A stretch of DNA of 6,170 nucleotides from Actinomycetota bacterium (GTDB taxonomy: Bacteria > Actinomycetota > Thermoleophilia > Gaiellales > Gaiellaceae): positions 1-6,170 of the forward strand of contig JACDER010000095.1 of assembly GCA_013816275.1 (NCBI GenBank). Reading direction: 5' to 3'. The position numbers were made by a program, and so were the translations under genes. The notes under the pieces are model-generated. The model did no database searches. It was not told the origin of the DNA and saw only the letters and a list, made by a program, of their open reading frames with translations. Every line of letters starts with the position of its first letter. Position 1 is the first letter of the stretch. Of the stretch, positions 1,807-5,744 are shown piece by piece.

Positions 1807-2046
1807 CTACGGCATCACGAGCCTCTCGCCGACTCGAATGACCGTCCCCGAGAGATGGTTGCGCTCGCTGATCTTCCAGACCCCTTCCCGCGGGTCGCCG
1901 CCGTAGTACCGCGATGCGATCGACCACAGCGTGTCGTGGGGCCTCACGACATAGGAGCCCGAAGGTGGCGAGCCGCTCGACGGGCGGGCAAACACGACCC
2001 AGCCCACCAGGAAGACGAGTGCGAGTGCGATTGACCGTACGAACAT
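1807..2046 (-). CDS. Small membrane-anchored LysM protein under LexA (SOS) control, YneA/Rv2719c-like
   Basis: The protein has 79 residues: a hydrophobic N-terminal segment (about 5-20, SIALALVFLVGWVVFA) that would anchor or export it, a short Ser/Pro/Gly linker (21-30), and one LysM domain (31-79). The domain begins SYVVRPHDTLWSIASRYYG and ends with the typical VIRVGERLVMP. LysM binds the N-acetylglucosamine backbone of peptidoglycan; no catalytic domain follows. This size and layout match the SOS-induced cell-division inhibitor YneA of Bacillus and, loosely, mycobacterial Rv2719c, which lie next to lexA; here lexA is not adjacent. The promoter (2055-2083) carries a perfect LexA box in its spacer and a second box over the start codon. 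The upstream ATG at 2056 is out of frame. The gene lies 33 bases downstream of the DUF1611 gene, so read-through expression is also possible. Its role as a division inhibitor is inferred from regulation and architecture, not from close sequence identity. Confidence 0.88.
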   Translation of the reverse strand: MFVRSIALALVFLVGWVVFARPSSGSPPSGSYVVRPHDTLWSIASRYYGGDPREGVWKISERNHLSGTVIRVGERLVMP

Positions 2047-2053
2047 ATGTCCG
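2040..2053. promoter_or_regulatory. Second, one-mismatch LexA box over the LysM start codon
   Basis: Read on the minus strand, CGGACATATGTTCG matches CGAAC-N4-GTTCG at nine of ten positions. Its centre is 24 bp from that of the perfect box, and the ATG of the LysM gene lies inside it. It may provide cooperative repression. The right half-site is also coding sequence (MFV), so part of its conservation could be coincidental. Confidence 0.6.
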
Positions 2054-2054
2054 C

Positions 2055-2083
2055 ATGATAAAGCGAACGTCTGTTCGTGTCAA
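2055..2083 (-). promoter_or_regulatory. Strong promoter of the LysM gene (TTGACA-N17-TATCAT)
   Basis: On the minus strand a perfect TTGACA -35 (2083-2078) is followed by an optimal 17-bp spacer and a TATCAT -10 (2060-2055), with the ATG eight bases later at 2046. The -35 overlaps the stop codon of the DUF1611 gene (TGA at 2082-2080). Predicted initiation is within a few bases of the ATG, giving an almost leaderless transcript. Confidence 0.85.
2064..2077. promoter_or_regulatory. LexA operator (SOS box), perfect CGAAC-N4-GTTCG
   Basis: CGAACGTCTGTTCG matches all ten defined positions of the Gram-positive LexA consensus. It lies entirely within the 17-bp spacer between the -35 and -10 of the LysM promoter, where a bound repressor would exclude RNA polymerase. 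Confidence 0.88.
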
Positions 2084-3114
2084 GCCGAATCGTGACCGAT
2101 TTGTGTCAGGACCGCGTCGACAATCCGAGCGGCGCCAAAACGGACTGGATCGTCGGCTACGAGCCCGGTCTCCTCTCCCGCCTCGGCGACCGCCCGCCGG
2201 GCCGCCTCCTCGTCGAGAGCCCGCGTGTTGAGCGCGATCGCCGCCACCGGGGCCCGACGTGCGATGAGCGCCATCTGCTCGTGCAGTTCGACCAGCTCGC
2301 GGAGCGCCGGCATCGGAAAGCGAGGGTCGTCGTTGACGTACTCCTGACCCGCGGCATGGCAGAGGACGAGCGCATGAGGAGCGCAGCCGTGGTAGAGACC
2401 GAGGGTCACTCCCGAGTACTGCGGATGCGTGAGGGAGCCCTGGCCCTCGATCCAGAGCAGCTCTCCCCCACGTTCGACGCCCTCGAGGACCAGCCGCTCG
2501 GCCGCGCCTGCGATGAAGTCCGCGATGACGGCGTCGACGGCGATCCCCCAGCCGGCGATCGCGATCCCCGTCTGGCCGGTCGGGACGAAGACCGAGGCGA
2601 TCCCGCGAGCGCGAGCCTCCCGGTCGAGCTCGAGCGAGACCGTCATCTTCCCGATCGCGCAGTCCGAGCCGACCGTCAGGACGATGCGCGCGGAGACCTC
2701 GAGGTTCGCCCCCGTCGGAACGTTCAGGTCGTCCGGCGGCTTCCGCAGGTCGACGAGCTCGGCGCCGCTCCGGCTCGCGAGCTCGACCAGCTCGGGGTCC
2801 TCGCTCACCCGCTGATGCAGACCGTTCTCGATGTCGAGCCCGGCGGCGATGCAGCTCTTGAGGAGCTCGCGCCAGGCGGGCGGGAAGCGGCCGCCCGACG
2901 TGGCGACGCCGACGAGCGCCGTCGTCGGCCCTAGCGGCATCGCCTCCTCGACGCTGCCCACGATCGGGAAGCCCTCATAGCGCTCGCCAGGGCGCTCGGA
3001 GTCGAGCACGGCGACGACCTTCTCGGGCGCATACCGAACCACCCCACGCGCGGTCTTGCCGTAGTGGGGATCGCCGGAGCGTCCCTCAGCCAGGACGAGA
3101 TATCGCTTCGGCAT
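2080..3114 (-). CDS. dgcN: DUF1611 family protein, D-glutamate N-acetyltransferase (DgcN)-like
   Basis: 344 residues. The N-terminal Rossmann-like domain (about 1-140, starting MPKRYLVLAEG) is followed by a P-loop domain (141-344) with the variant Walker A motif GSDCAIGKMT (149-158). The family-typical stretches TGQTGIAIAGWG (179-190) and IEGQGSLTHPQYSG (222-235) follow. Full length for DUF1611. Members of this family, paired with an enolase-superfamily racemase, have been reported as DgcN, which N-acetylates D-glutamate before racemisation by DgcA. Older annotations call the family NAD-dependent epimerase/dehydratase-like or of unknown function. The start at 3114 was chosen because homology begins at MPKRY and GGAG lies just upstream; an in-frame extension to 3186 encodes unconvincing sequence inside the previous gene. 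The start overlaps the end of the epimerase gene by 29 bases, implying one transcript and coupled translation. The family is certain; the acetyltransferase role rests on family precedent. Confidence 0.85.
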   Translation of the reverse strand: MPKRYLVLAEGRSGDPHYGKTARGVVRYAPEKVVAVLDSERPGERYEGFPIVGSVEEAMPLGPTTALVGVATSGGRFPPAWRELLKSCIAAGLDIENGLHQRVSEDPELVELASRSGAELVDLRKPPDDLNVPTGANLEVSARIVLTVGSDCAIGKMTVSLELDREARARGIASVFVPTGQTGIAIAGWGIAVDAVIADFIAGAAERLVLEGVERGGELLWIEGQGSLTHPQYSGVTLGLYHGCAPHALVLCHAAGQEYVNDDPRFPMPALRELVELHEQMALIARRAPVAAIALNTRALDEEAARRAVAEAGEETGLVADDPVRFGAARIVDAVLTQIGHDSA

Positions 3115-4111
3115 GAACTCCAAGTCCAGGGGCGTCGGCCGGGAGCTGCACCCCGTCGACCAGCTCGACGCCGGGGCACGGATCACGGGCGATCAGGAGG
3201 TTCCCGTCCAGGTCGACGTGGTCACAGAGGCTGGCCACCTGGCAGCCCGCGGCGATCCCCAGCCCGGACTCGATCATGCAGCCCACCATCACCTCGAGAT
3301 CGAGCGCGCGGGCGGCGTGAGCGATCCGGATCGCCTCCCGGATCCCGCCCGACTTCGCCAGCTTGATGTTGACGCCGTGCGCCCGCTCGGCGCAGGCGGC
3401 GACGTCCGCGAGCGTGTGGCAGTCCTCGTCGACGTAGATCGGGATCGGCGAGCGGCGCTTCAGCTCGGCCCCGCCCTCGTCGCCCGCGGGCAACGGCTGC
3501 TCGCAATACTGGACGCCCGCCGCCGCGAGCTCGGGAAGCGCCTCGAGCGCTTCCTCCAGCGACCAGTATTCGTTGACGTCGACCTGGAGCGGCAAGTCGG
3601 TCGCCGCGCGCACGGCCCGGACGCGCTCGACGTCCAGCCCGTCGCGCCCGCCGATCTTGAGCTTCAGCCGGCGGAAACGCCCGTCGCTTGCCCGCTCGGC
3701 GGAACGTGCCATCGAGTCGGGATCCGCGAGCGTGATCGTCCAGGATGTCGGCGGCCCGGCGCGAGGCAGGCCGAGCAACCGCCAGACCGGCAGGCCGGCC
3801 AGCTTGCCGCAGAGGTCGTAGAGGGCGGCGTCGATCGCGGACCGAGCGGCGAACTCCTCCGCCGGTAGCCGGCCGAGGATCTCCTCGAGCGCGAACGGAT
3901 CCTCTCCCAGCAGGTCCGCGTTGTCCTCAACGTACCGTAGAGCGGATTCCGCCGACTCCCCGTAGCGATCGATCGGCGCCGCTTCGCCCAGTCCGACGGC
4001 GTCGTCATGGCGGAGCTCCACCTGGACGACGTCCGCCTCGGTCTGGGTCTCGCGAGCGATCACAAACGGCTCCGCGAGTTCGAGACCGACGATCCGGGCG
4101 GCGATTTCCAC
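3086..4111 (-). CDS. dgcA: Enolase-superfamily dipeptide epimerase / N-acetyl-D-glutamate racemase-like
   Basis: 341 residues with the muconate-lactonizing/Ala-Glu-epimerase layout: capping domain (about 1-120) and (beta/alpha)7-beta barrel. Visible catalytic residues are Lys150/Lys152 in LKLK, metal ligands Asp178 (QVDVN), Glu204 (CEQPL) and Asp228 (YVDEDC), and the opposite base Lys250 in NIKLAKSGG. A DLD motif (300-302) occupies the place where L-Ala-D/L-Glu epimerases bind the substrate amino group. The family epimerises the alpha carbon of L-Ala-D-Glu during murein-peptide recycling. The related DgcA converts N-acetyl-D-Glu to N-acetyl-L-Glu. The partner DUF1611 gene favours the DgcA role, while the DLD motif keeps the dipeptide role open. 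GTG at 4111 is the start: TAGTCT lies exactly six bases upstream and no ribosome site is seen, so it is probably leaderless. Head-to-head with tRNA-Arg. Confidence 0.87.
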   Translation of the reverse strand: MEIAARIVGLELAEPFVIARETQTEADVVQVELRHDDAVGLGEAAPIDRYGESAESALRYVEDNADLLGEDPFALEEILGRLPAEEFAARSAIDAALYDLCGKLAGLPVWRLLGLPRAGPPTSWTITLADPDSMARSAERASDGRFRRLKLKIGGRDGLDVERVRAVRAATDLPLQVDVNEYWSLEEALEALPELAAAGVQYCEQPLPAGDEGGAELKRRSPIPIYVDEDCHTLADVAACAERAHGVNIKLAKSGGIREAIRIAHAARALDLEVMVGCMIESGLGIAAGCQVASLCDHVDLDGNLLIARDPCPGVELVDGVQLPADAPGLGVHAEAISRPG

Positions 4112-4134: not shown

Positions 4135-4207
4135 GCGCCCGTAGCTCAGGGGATAGAGCGCGCGCCTCCGGAGCGCGAGGTCGCAGGTTCAAATCCTGCC
4201 GGGCGCA
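4135..4207 (+). tRNA. tRNA-Arg (anticodon CCG)
   Basis: A full 73-base cloverleaf can be drawn. Acceptor stem GCGCCCG/CGGGCGC (4135-4141 with 4200-4206), discriminator A4207. D-arm GCTC/GAGC with an 8-base loop. Anticodon stem CGCGC/GCGCG with loop CTCCGGA, so the anticodon is CCG at 4168-4170, reading CGG. Five-base variable loop; T-arm GCAGG/CCTGC with loop TTCAAAT. All stems pair perfectly. CCA is not encoded, so it must be added after 3' trimming, the step in which RNase Z (encoded at the left edge) acts. The gene converges on the lipoprotein operon with 34 bases between. Confidence 0.97.
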
Positions 4208-4241
4208 CTCTCCTCGATCTTGAAAGCCCGGATCTGGTGCA

Positions 4242-4691
4242 TCAACCGGGGAAGCAGCCCGTCGCGCCGATCTCCTGCGCGGGGGGCCAGGTGTCCTGGT
4301 TGTCGGTGTTCGACTTCTGGAGGGCAGCCAGGAGCTTCGCGGCGTCTCCGTCCTTGGCGGCGCTCACCGCATCTCTCGTGTCCTCCAGGACCTTCGCGTT
4401 GGCGTCGCGGTACTCGCGCGCGGCGTCCGCGATCTCATCCGGGGGCGTGAGCGCGTCGAACTTCTTCTGGAAGTTCTCCTCGATCTTGACCAGCTCGTCG
4501 CCGGCGTGCTTCCAGGCCGCCACCGTGTTGTCGACGTGCAGCTCGCGGACCTGATCCGAGCCGAGAAGGCACAGCTTGGTGAGCGCGGAGGCGTAGTGCT
4601 CCTTGTCCAGCTGCTTCTTACCCCCGCCACCGCACGACGCGCCGACAAGCGCTACGGCGACGACGATCACGAGCCCGGTCGCCCTATGCAC
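4242..4691 (-). CDS. Small putative lipoprotein, paralogue A of a tandem pair
   Basis: 149 residues from a GTG at 4691. A hydrophobic signal (about 4-16) runs into VGASC with Cys20 as the likely lipidation site; Gly at -3 makes the lipobox slightly atypical. A GGGGKK linker follows, then a mostly helical charged domain with LC (Cys41), DQV (46-48), AWK (59-61), TPPDE (82-86), EY (93-94), AAKDG (111-115) and IGATGC (Cys146). The two conserved cysteines outside the signal could form a disulfide. It is a gapless paralogue of the upstream gene. The start was chosen because GTG overlaps the upstream stop by eight bases, gives a signal peptide and aligns exactly with the paralogue; an in-frame extension to 4808 is a reading-frame artefact within that gene. 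No family is recognised; a surface-exposed role is inferred only from the signal. Confidence 0.82.
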   Translation of the reverse strand: MHRATGLVIVVAVALVGASCGGGGKKQLDKEHYASALTKLCLLGSDQVRELHVDNTVAAWKHAGDELVKIEENFQKKFDALTPPDEIADAAREYRDANAKVLEDTRDAVSAAKDGDAAKLLAALQKSNTDNQDTWPPAQEIGATGCFPG

Positions 4692-5133
4692 AGGACTTGG
4701 CGCCGATCCTCCCCGCCAGGGCATTCCCCTTCTGTCCGGCATTCTGTTGCCGGCTGATCGCGTCGTCGAACTTCGTGACGTTGCCCGCCTTCGCTGCATC
4801 GGCGGCATCCTGCACCGCCGCGGCGATCTCCTCGCTCGCGCTGATGTACTCGCTGGCCAGGCTCCGGAGCTCGTCGGGAGGCGTGTAGAACTTGAACCCG
4901 ACCACCGTCGCCTTGGCGATCTGGGCGGCCTTCTGCCCGTTCCGCTTCCACGTCCCGATCGCGGTGGTGAGCCTCAGAGCCGCCACCTGGTCGTTCGCGC
5001 TCGCGCACAACCTGTTCATCGACGCGACGTAGTCGCCGCGCGACAGCTTCTGCGTCTTCTTTTCCGAGCCTCCGCAAGCTGCGGCGACGGCCACGAGGGC
5101 GATCACGAGGATCGCGGGCAAGACCTTCCGCAT
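4684..5133 (-). CDS. Small putative lipoprotein, paralogue B of a tandem pair
   Basis: 149 residues. N-terminal MRK followed by a hydrophobic segment (4-18) and VAAAC, with Cys20 the predicted lipidated residue, then a GGSEKKTQ linker. The mature domain has LC (Cys43), DQV (48-50), TWK (61-63), TPPDE (84-88), EY (95-96), AAKAG (113-117) and IGAKSC (Cys148). The lipobox cysteine is at residue 20 in both paralogues, and from about residue 27 the two align without gaps; I count roughly 36 identities over 122 positions by hand. AGGA lies eight bases before the ATG. It starts 16 bases after the stop of the secreted-protein gene and overlaps paralogue A by eight bases, so the three form one operon. 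No known family is recognised; the helical, charged make-up gives no enzyme motif. Confidence 0.85.
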   Translation of the reverse strand: MRKVLPAILVIALVAVAAACGGSEKKTQKLSRGDYVASMNRLCASANDQVAALRLTTAIGTWKRNGQKAAQIAKATVVGFKFYTPPDELRSLASEYISASEEIAAAVQDAADAAKAGNVTKFDDAISRQQNAGQKGNALAGRIGAKSCA

Positions 5134-5698: not shown

Positions 5699-5744
5699 TT
5701 GAAATAGGTATGAGTAGCCTGCTTGAAATAGGTATGAGTAGCCT
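5699..5744. repeat. Perfect 22-bp direct repeat (two copies, 24-bp period) in a divergent promoter region
   Basis: Copies at 5699-5720 and 5723-5744 are identical over 22 bases; each begins TTGAAATAGGTATGAG and ends TAGCCT, with two bases (GC) between. The element is markedly AT-richer than its surroundings and fills the space between the -35 of the exported-protein operon and the MFS start. The final TAGCCT of the second copy is the candidate MFS -10. It is best read as a double operator or duplicated regulatory element; the repeat is not coding. Confidence 0.8.
5739..5744 (+). promoter_or_regulatory. Candidate -10 (TAGCCT) for the MFS gene
   Basis: TAGCCT fits TANNNT and ends eight bases before the ATG at 5753. 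It is the 3' end of the second direct-repeat copy, so anything bound to the repeat would cover it. No -35 stands out at 17 bases. Confidence 0.45.

Follow-up and report, generated by a model that had tools for sequence, protein, structure and literature searches.

A YneA-like LysM gene with a predicted LexA-repressed, leaderless promoter, its start codon inside a LexA-type box and lexA elsewhere in an order of Actinomycetota

Layout of the LysM locus

We analysed a 6,170-nucleotide stretch of a Gaiellaceae genome (hereafter the window), whose minus strand carries a small LysM gene and its compact promoter (Table 1). The encoded protein has the architecture of YneA/ChiZ-like division inhibitors, i.e. 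a small protein with one transmembrane segment, predicted here by hydropathy only, followed by one LysM domain, and a Pfam search returned no other domain. Against the NCBIfam YneA model (NF010723) it scores 35.3 bits, under the curated cut-off of 60 and thus short of an equivalog assignment, and we therefore refer to it as YneA-like rather than YneA. A hydropathy segment above 1.6 was found in all 55 proteins of the order, the window's included, and the relative P0093, a Gaiellaceae LysM protein, is 58% identical, which points to Gaiellales as the probable order. When genome contigs were searched with the window protein, only three matches to LysM were obtained, all distant and located in bins of Planctomycetota and Proteobacteria.

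Table 1 Features of the LysM locus in the window
Feature	Coordinates	Strand	Basis
-35 element TTGACA	2083-2078	minus	promoter-like site scan of the window
LexA-type box 1, CGAACAGACGTTCG, perfect CGAAC-N4-GTTCG, filling the 17-bp spacer between -35 and -10	2077-2064	minus	
-10 element TATCAT, with the ATG 8 nt further on	2060-2055	minus	
LexA-type box 2, CGGACATATGTTCG, 9/10 (one mismatch), including the start codon	2053-2040	minus	
Start codon ATG of the LysM ORF, inside box 2	2046-2044	minus	
79-aa YneA-like protein: short N-terminus, hydrophobic segment, one LysM	2046-1807	minus	
Predicted transmembrane anchor, residues 3-19	2040-1990	minus	Kyte-Doolittle mean 2.32, 17 residues
LysM domain, residues 32-79	1953-1810	minus	PF01476, 40.3 bits (cut-off 20.9), 2.9e-10
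DgcN-like / DUF1611 upstream neighbour (mechanical ORF; translation probably begins further in)	2080-3186	minus	NF041892, 284.8 bits (cut-off 480 not reached)
DgcA-like enolase-superfamily racemase/epimerase, next neighbour	3086-4111	minus	NF042940, 263.2 bits (cut-off 400 not reached)

A first-pass annotation of this DNA had described, on the minus strand, a TTGACA and a TATCAT separated by a 17-bp spacer, a perfect CGAAC-N4-GTTCG within that spacer, and a second box matching nine of ten positions over the LysM start codon at a spacing of 24 bp, all of which we found as described. The promoter agrees with the consensus at 11 of 12 positions, and the window contains two promoter-like sites compared to a mean of 0.3 in shuffled sequences. 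The upstream DgcN-like ORF terminates within the -35 element, whose TGA is its stop codon. Judging from the two boxes and their conservation across relatives, the LysM promoter carries a predicted LexA operator, as is characteristic of YneA/ChiZ-like inhibitors.

The same annotation had placed the LysM gene behind D-glutamate/murein-peptide genes. DgcN- and DgcA-like genes are indeed found there, both below their NCBIfam cut-offs, and they carry little meaning, since a DgcN-like gene lies near the LysM gene in few loci (14 of 55 with codon-bias-filtered gene calling and up to 18 with cruder calling, neighbourhood calls being rough even with the filter). Upstream neighbours vary among relatives, and include M29-aminopeptidase-like, YfcE-like phosphoesterase, glycosidase-like and other genes (named by eye, without a family search). 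On these grounds, a functional link between the LysM gene and the DgcN/DgcA genes was rejected. Elsewhere in the window, a tRNA-Arg (CCG) at 4135-4208 on the plus strand separates the DgcA-like gene from a pair of adjacent small paralogues on the minus strand (4242-4808 and 4684-5133; 32% identity over 129 aa), which have lipoprotein-like N-termini by eye and returned no Pfam match. A perfect 22-bp direct repeat, TTGAAATAGGTATGAGTAGCCT, occurs at 5699-5720 and 5723-5744, 24 bp apart, just ahead of an MFS transporter ORF.

LexA and the conservation of the start-codon box

LexA is encoded in the genome and has both of its domains (TIGR00498, 219.6 bits, cut-off 110.95), and the lexA gene is preceded by the same type of box, CGAACACACGTTCG, beginning 32 nt before the start codon. 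One characteristic of a LexA/SOS regulon, a LexA encoded in the genome with the motif ahead of its own gene, is present, and the lack of LexA, named in the first-pass annotation as a fact that would speak against SOS control, does not apply. Across the 1.79-Mb assembly, we counted seven perfect boxes compared to six for the reversed pattern, and the window contains four matches with up to two mismatches where shuffled sequences average 5.9. Box counting was accordingly rejected as a line of evidence: taken alone, the sequence of the box is no more frequent than expected by chance, but its placement and conservation go beyond chance. A narrower form, CGAACRNNYGTTCG, picked after viewing the boxes, is shared by four of the seven perfect ones, located at the LysM gene, at lexA, in the start region of uvrA (whose product exceeds the NF001503 cut-off for UvrA), and where two divergent mechanical ORFs overlap, one of them encoding a radical SAM protein of the Rv2578c family (279.3 bits, cut-off of 430 not reached). 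The remaining three include two within ORFs and one at an ORF end. recA was not found in this assembly, which is 64.6% complete, and was found in all 16 other genomes searched.

Placement and conservation were evaluated across the order. A LysM search of 61 genomes, including the window's own, identified the gene in 55, with one locus read per genome, and a class-wide search yielded strong matches in 12 further genomes of the order, for a total of 67 orthologous loci. The start codon lies within a LexA-type box (up to one mismatch) in 54 of the 55 loci and in all 12 added ones, i.e. in 66 of 67, across f1, f2 and f3, all three families of the order in which the gene was found. The exception (L095) has a box in the spacer only. 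These start-codon boxes are perfect in 59 cases and have one mismatch in seven, box 2 of the window among them; the start codon is ATG in 61 and GTG in five, and the second codon is TTC in all 66. Another box with up to one mismatch is located 21-26 bp upstream in 58 of the 66 loci, and TTGAC is found upstream in 57, out of register in one (L031). Within the 58 two-box loci, box columns are 91-100% conserved, save position -1 (53%), compared to 31-50% at positions -70 to -40; since having a box (up to one mismatch) was the entry condition for these column figures, the count of 66 out of 67 is the stronger statement. No LysM match was found in six of the 61 genomes, including all five of family f4, nor in a further member of that family (G170) covered by the class-wide search.

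The first-pass annotation had suggested looking for the box upstream of LysM orthologues in related genomes and had regarded loss of the sites in close orthologues as counting against its reading; the sites are instead retained, including as pairs in most loci. This also bears on a reading by chance, in which CGAAC-N4-GTTCG and a good sigma-70 match would merely coincide in a GC-rich genome. As far as numbers go, perfect boxes hardly more frequent than the reversed pattern would fit such a coincidence, but a start-codon box recurring at the same place in nearly every locus of three families makes it exceedingly improbable, and we consider this reading already refuted by that conservation.

Boxes with up to one mismatch also precede lexA in all 30 lexA loci read, of which three have an in-frame start-like codon within the box. 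In two lexA loci from family f4 (L059 and L060), an in-frame ATG is found inside a lexA box with one mismatch, and no LysM orthologue was found in this family. The start of lexA itself may thus lie within its own operator in f4.

In leaderless promoters, the -10 element is located 6-9 nt ahead of the start codon, and a Shine-Dalgarno sequence is lacking. The sequences of the LysM loci follow this pattern: in 62 of the 66 loci, a TANNNT is found at a distance of 7-11 nt ahead of the start codon, a distance that is 7-9 nt in 59, with none of six Shine-Dalgarno-like 5-mers found in the last 22 nt before the start in any of the 66 (a count made without a control set). Since transcription from a -10 element at a distance of 7-9 nt would be expected to begin on the start codon or no more than about 2 nt from it, we predict a leaderless mRNA for the LysM gene, in which case box 2 would cover the transcription and translation starts together. 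Alternatively, the transcript could have a short leader or a true start elsewhere, with box 2 including the ATG only by happenstance, a reading left room by a transcription start that is a prediction here, and by the four loci of 66 without a TANNNT in register. We judge this unlikely in view of the start codon and TTC found within the box in every one of the 66 loci, the regular 7-9 nt spacing and the consistent lack of Shine-Dalgarno-like motifs, and the invariance of M1 and F2 across 53 aligned orthologous proteins. The predicted leaderless start has a parallel in lexA of M. tuberculosis, reported to be a leaderless SOS gene whose transcription and translation starts coincide (PMC2897130). 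That gene differs in encoding the repressor itself, and the consulted part of that account describes no start codon inside an operator (PMC2897130).

Separation from lexA and recA-type promoters in relatives

Among known inhibitors, yneA adjoins lexA, and the gene for ChiZ (Rv2719c) neighbours lexA as well. In the order studied here, the LysM gene and lexA lie apart: no lexA was found in the flanks of the 55 LysM loci or of the 12 further ones (0 of 67; flanks of 1.5 kb as a rule, shorter at contig ends), and no LysM gene was found near the 30 lexA loci. The two genes are separated by about 850 kb in a single-contig genome (G018) and about 309 kb in another (G053). In family f6 of the same class, lexA is located directly upstream of the LysM gene in 13 of 14 strong-match loci, the 14th being cut by a contig end. 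In these 13, the LysM core starts 337-463 nt past the lexA stop codon on the same strand, and two boxes precede lexA, with none between the two genes. LysM matches in the remaining families of the class were only weak (best 2.4e-7) and mostly in longer ORFs. Beyond the class, we sampled 149 genomes of the phylum, 86 of which had some LysM match, and took the 30 best places, 28 of them outside the class. lexA is divergently oriented beside the LysM gene, with boxes between the two, in 21 of these 28 loci, and the other seven include six from family f23, one of them cut by a contig end. These six f23 loci (L119, L120, L122, L123, L131 and L132, the last being the one cut) have no motif box within 500 nt upstream (up to one mismatch) and no lexA in the fetched flanks.

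The proposal of the first-pass annotation that the gene had moved away from lexA is in line with this distribution. From this comparison of loci, the LysM gene is detached from lexA in the order, yet has kept its predicted LexA-type operators. The start codon itself reads GTG-TTC within a box in one divergent locus outside the class (L144), so that this arrangement may predate the order. L144, in which the box directly precedes position 2 of the hmm, was the only such case counted; start-in-box flags at far-upstream boxes of other lexA-linked loci were discounted.

The upstream box is missing in eight of the 66 loci. Seven of these (L029, L031, L035, L038, L072, L076 and L085) have a GTCCG-N10/11-TANNNT in register with the start-codon box, hereafter the recA-type promoter, and the eighth (L034) has a GTCCG without the TANNNT. 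In the seven relatives, the GTC-to-TA distance is 12 in five loci and 13 in two. The published LexA-independent P1/PafBC consensus is tTGTCRgtg-8nt-TannnT, with a GTC-to-TA distance of 12 (PMC5656591). Compared to these promoters, the spacing is alike and a similar motif is found upstream of recA in the order, but the motif of the order reads CGTCCG instead of TTGTCRGTG. The window's own promoter differs further, being of the TTGACA kind and without the motif.

Upstream of recA, CGTCCG was found in 15 of 16 genomes (L163-L178); in the remaining one, the motif reads TGTCCG and lies within a LexA-like box. Eight of the 16, which are related genomes compared without a shuffled control, have a strict TANNNT at the appropriate distance. 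Three of the seven genomes were further searched for CGTCCGA-N9/10-TANNNT, yielding 18 matches compared to five for the reversed control, and these include the LysM gene (three of three genomes), recA (two of three) and recJ (once; TIGR00644 above cut-off), along with unrelated or uncharacterised places. A PafC-like match was obtained in 16 of the 17 genomes searched, above cut-off in 13; the one without, G013 (78% complete), is among the seven with a recA-type LysM promoter. The CGTCCG-type motif is probably the LexA-independent (PafBC-type) damage promoter of the order, and we infer a putative PafBC-type control of the LysM gene in these seven relatives. In two genomes, the same motif precedes a conserved 79-80-aa protein (L198 and L202), for which a leaderless start is predicted 8 nt past the -10 element, and the L198 copy of which has no Pfam or NCBIfam match; this protein is a candidate member of the damage regulon. 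A single origin of the one-box group was unsupported: the short LysM tree needs four changes, at least two of them forced, and 0% of bootstrap trees have a single one. The direction of the promoter exchange is not settled on this tree.

Predicted function and significance

The window and its genome contain the promoter, both boxes, a gene for a hydrophobic segment followed by LysM, and a lexA gene with a like box, in a layout conserved across the order. We are confident in interpreting this combination as a predicted LexA-repressed, leaderless SOS promoter, whose product would likely block division after DNA damage. LexA dimers bound to both boxes would shut out RNA polymerase, one over the spacer and the other over the transcription start, and RecA-triggered cleavage of LexA would free both boxes. 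Transcription would then begin on the ATG or GTG, or no more than about 2 nt away, and the mRNA would have no leader. Once anchored in the membrane, the LysM protein would reach the divisome via its transmembrane segment and bind septal glycan via LysM, in the manner published for YneA and FtsW of Bacillus, and division would be held until repair is complete. Through its own operators, the gene would remain in the regulon though away from lexA.

Among characterised inhibitors, YneA of Bacillus is reported to dock on transmembrane segment 7 of FtsW via its own transmembrane segment, and to need glycan binding by its LysM to stop septal synthesis (PMC13396833). Like the protein proposed here, YneA of Bacillus subtilis is small and SOS-controlled, with one transmembrane segment and one extracellular LysM. 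The window's gene differs from it by its sub-cut-off score, its location away from lexA, its two operators, its start codon within one of them and its predicted leaderless mRNA. ChiZ (Rv2719c) is described as damage-induced, with an extracellular LysM, and as restraining division, but it is reported to be a cell wall hydrolase whose LysM is apparently dispensable (PMC3989709). The likeness to this actinobacterial protein is by description rather than by sequence comparison, and the differences are the hydrolase activity with a dispensable LysM and the adjacency to lexA, which the window's gene does not share. DivS of Corynebacterium glutamicum is reported to be an SOS-induced division suppressor with lexA close by and no significant homology to YneA (PMC3989709); it resembles the proposed role and is set apart by description only. 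Since ChiZ does not appear to need its LysM and DivS is reportedly unrelated to YneA, the way in which division is stopped may differ between such proteins. Streptomyces has been reported to be without clear homologues of these division inhibitors (PMC9380542).

By analogy with these proteins, the LysM protein is likely a division checkpoint protein of the YneA/ChiZ kind. It could instead be a LexA-regulated protein induced by damage for cell-wall maintenance or repair, given that LysM is a general glycan-binding module, that the YneA score is under its cut-off and that a murein-peptide-type gene is found among the neighbours in the window. This role appears distinctly unlikely for a protein made of a hydrophobic segment and one LysM with no further Pfam domain, whose 53 aligned orthologues all match the NCBIfam YneA model and whose orthologues in other lineages adjoin lexA, as known inhibitors do.

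For the checkpoint protein, this kind of gene is known, and what is new is its detachment from lexA with the operators kept, an order-wide start codon within an operator, the exchange for a recA-type promoter and the predicted leaderless mRNA. Among the titles listed in literature searches, none dealt with such a variant or with the SOS response of the order, which is weak evidence of absence as most subscription journals were outside the search. With moderate confidence, we propose that a single 14-bp sequence serves across the order as LexA operator, leaderless transcription start and start codon, dictating Met-Phe at the N-terminus, that the gene left an ancestral place beside lexA, and that several lineages swapped the other operator for a recA-type, PafBC-like promoter, which would place the gene under both damage circuits at once.

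If true, this reading would widen the known range of the SOS division checkpoint by an order for which we found no SOS study, and would show that a checkpoint gene can leave lexA yet remain in the regulon. With its operator and start codon fused, the gene would make a clean system in which to study how expression of leaderless genes is prevented, and through the promoter exchange, LexA and recA-type (PafBC-like) circuits would be joined at one gene. For unstudied actinobacteria, the layout would also provide a search rule for SOS checkpoints, namely CGAAC-NN-[A/G]TG-TTCG at a LysM ORF.
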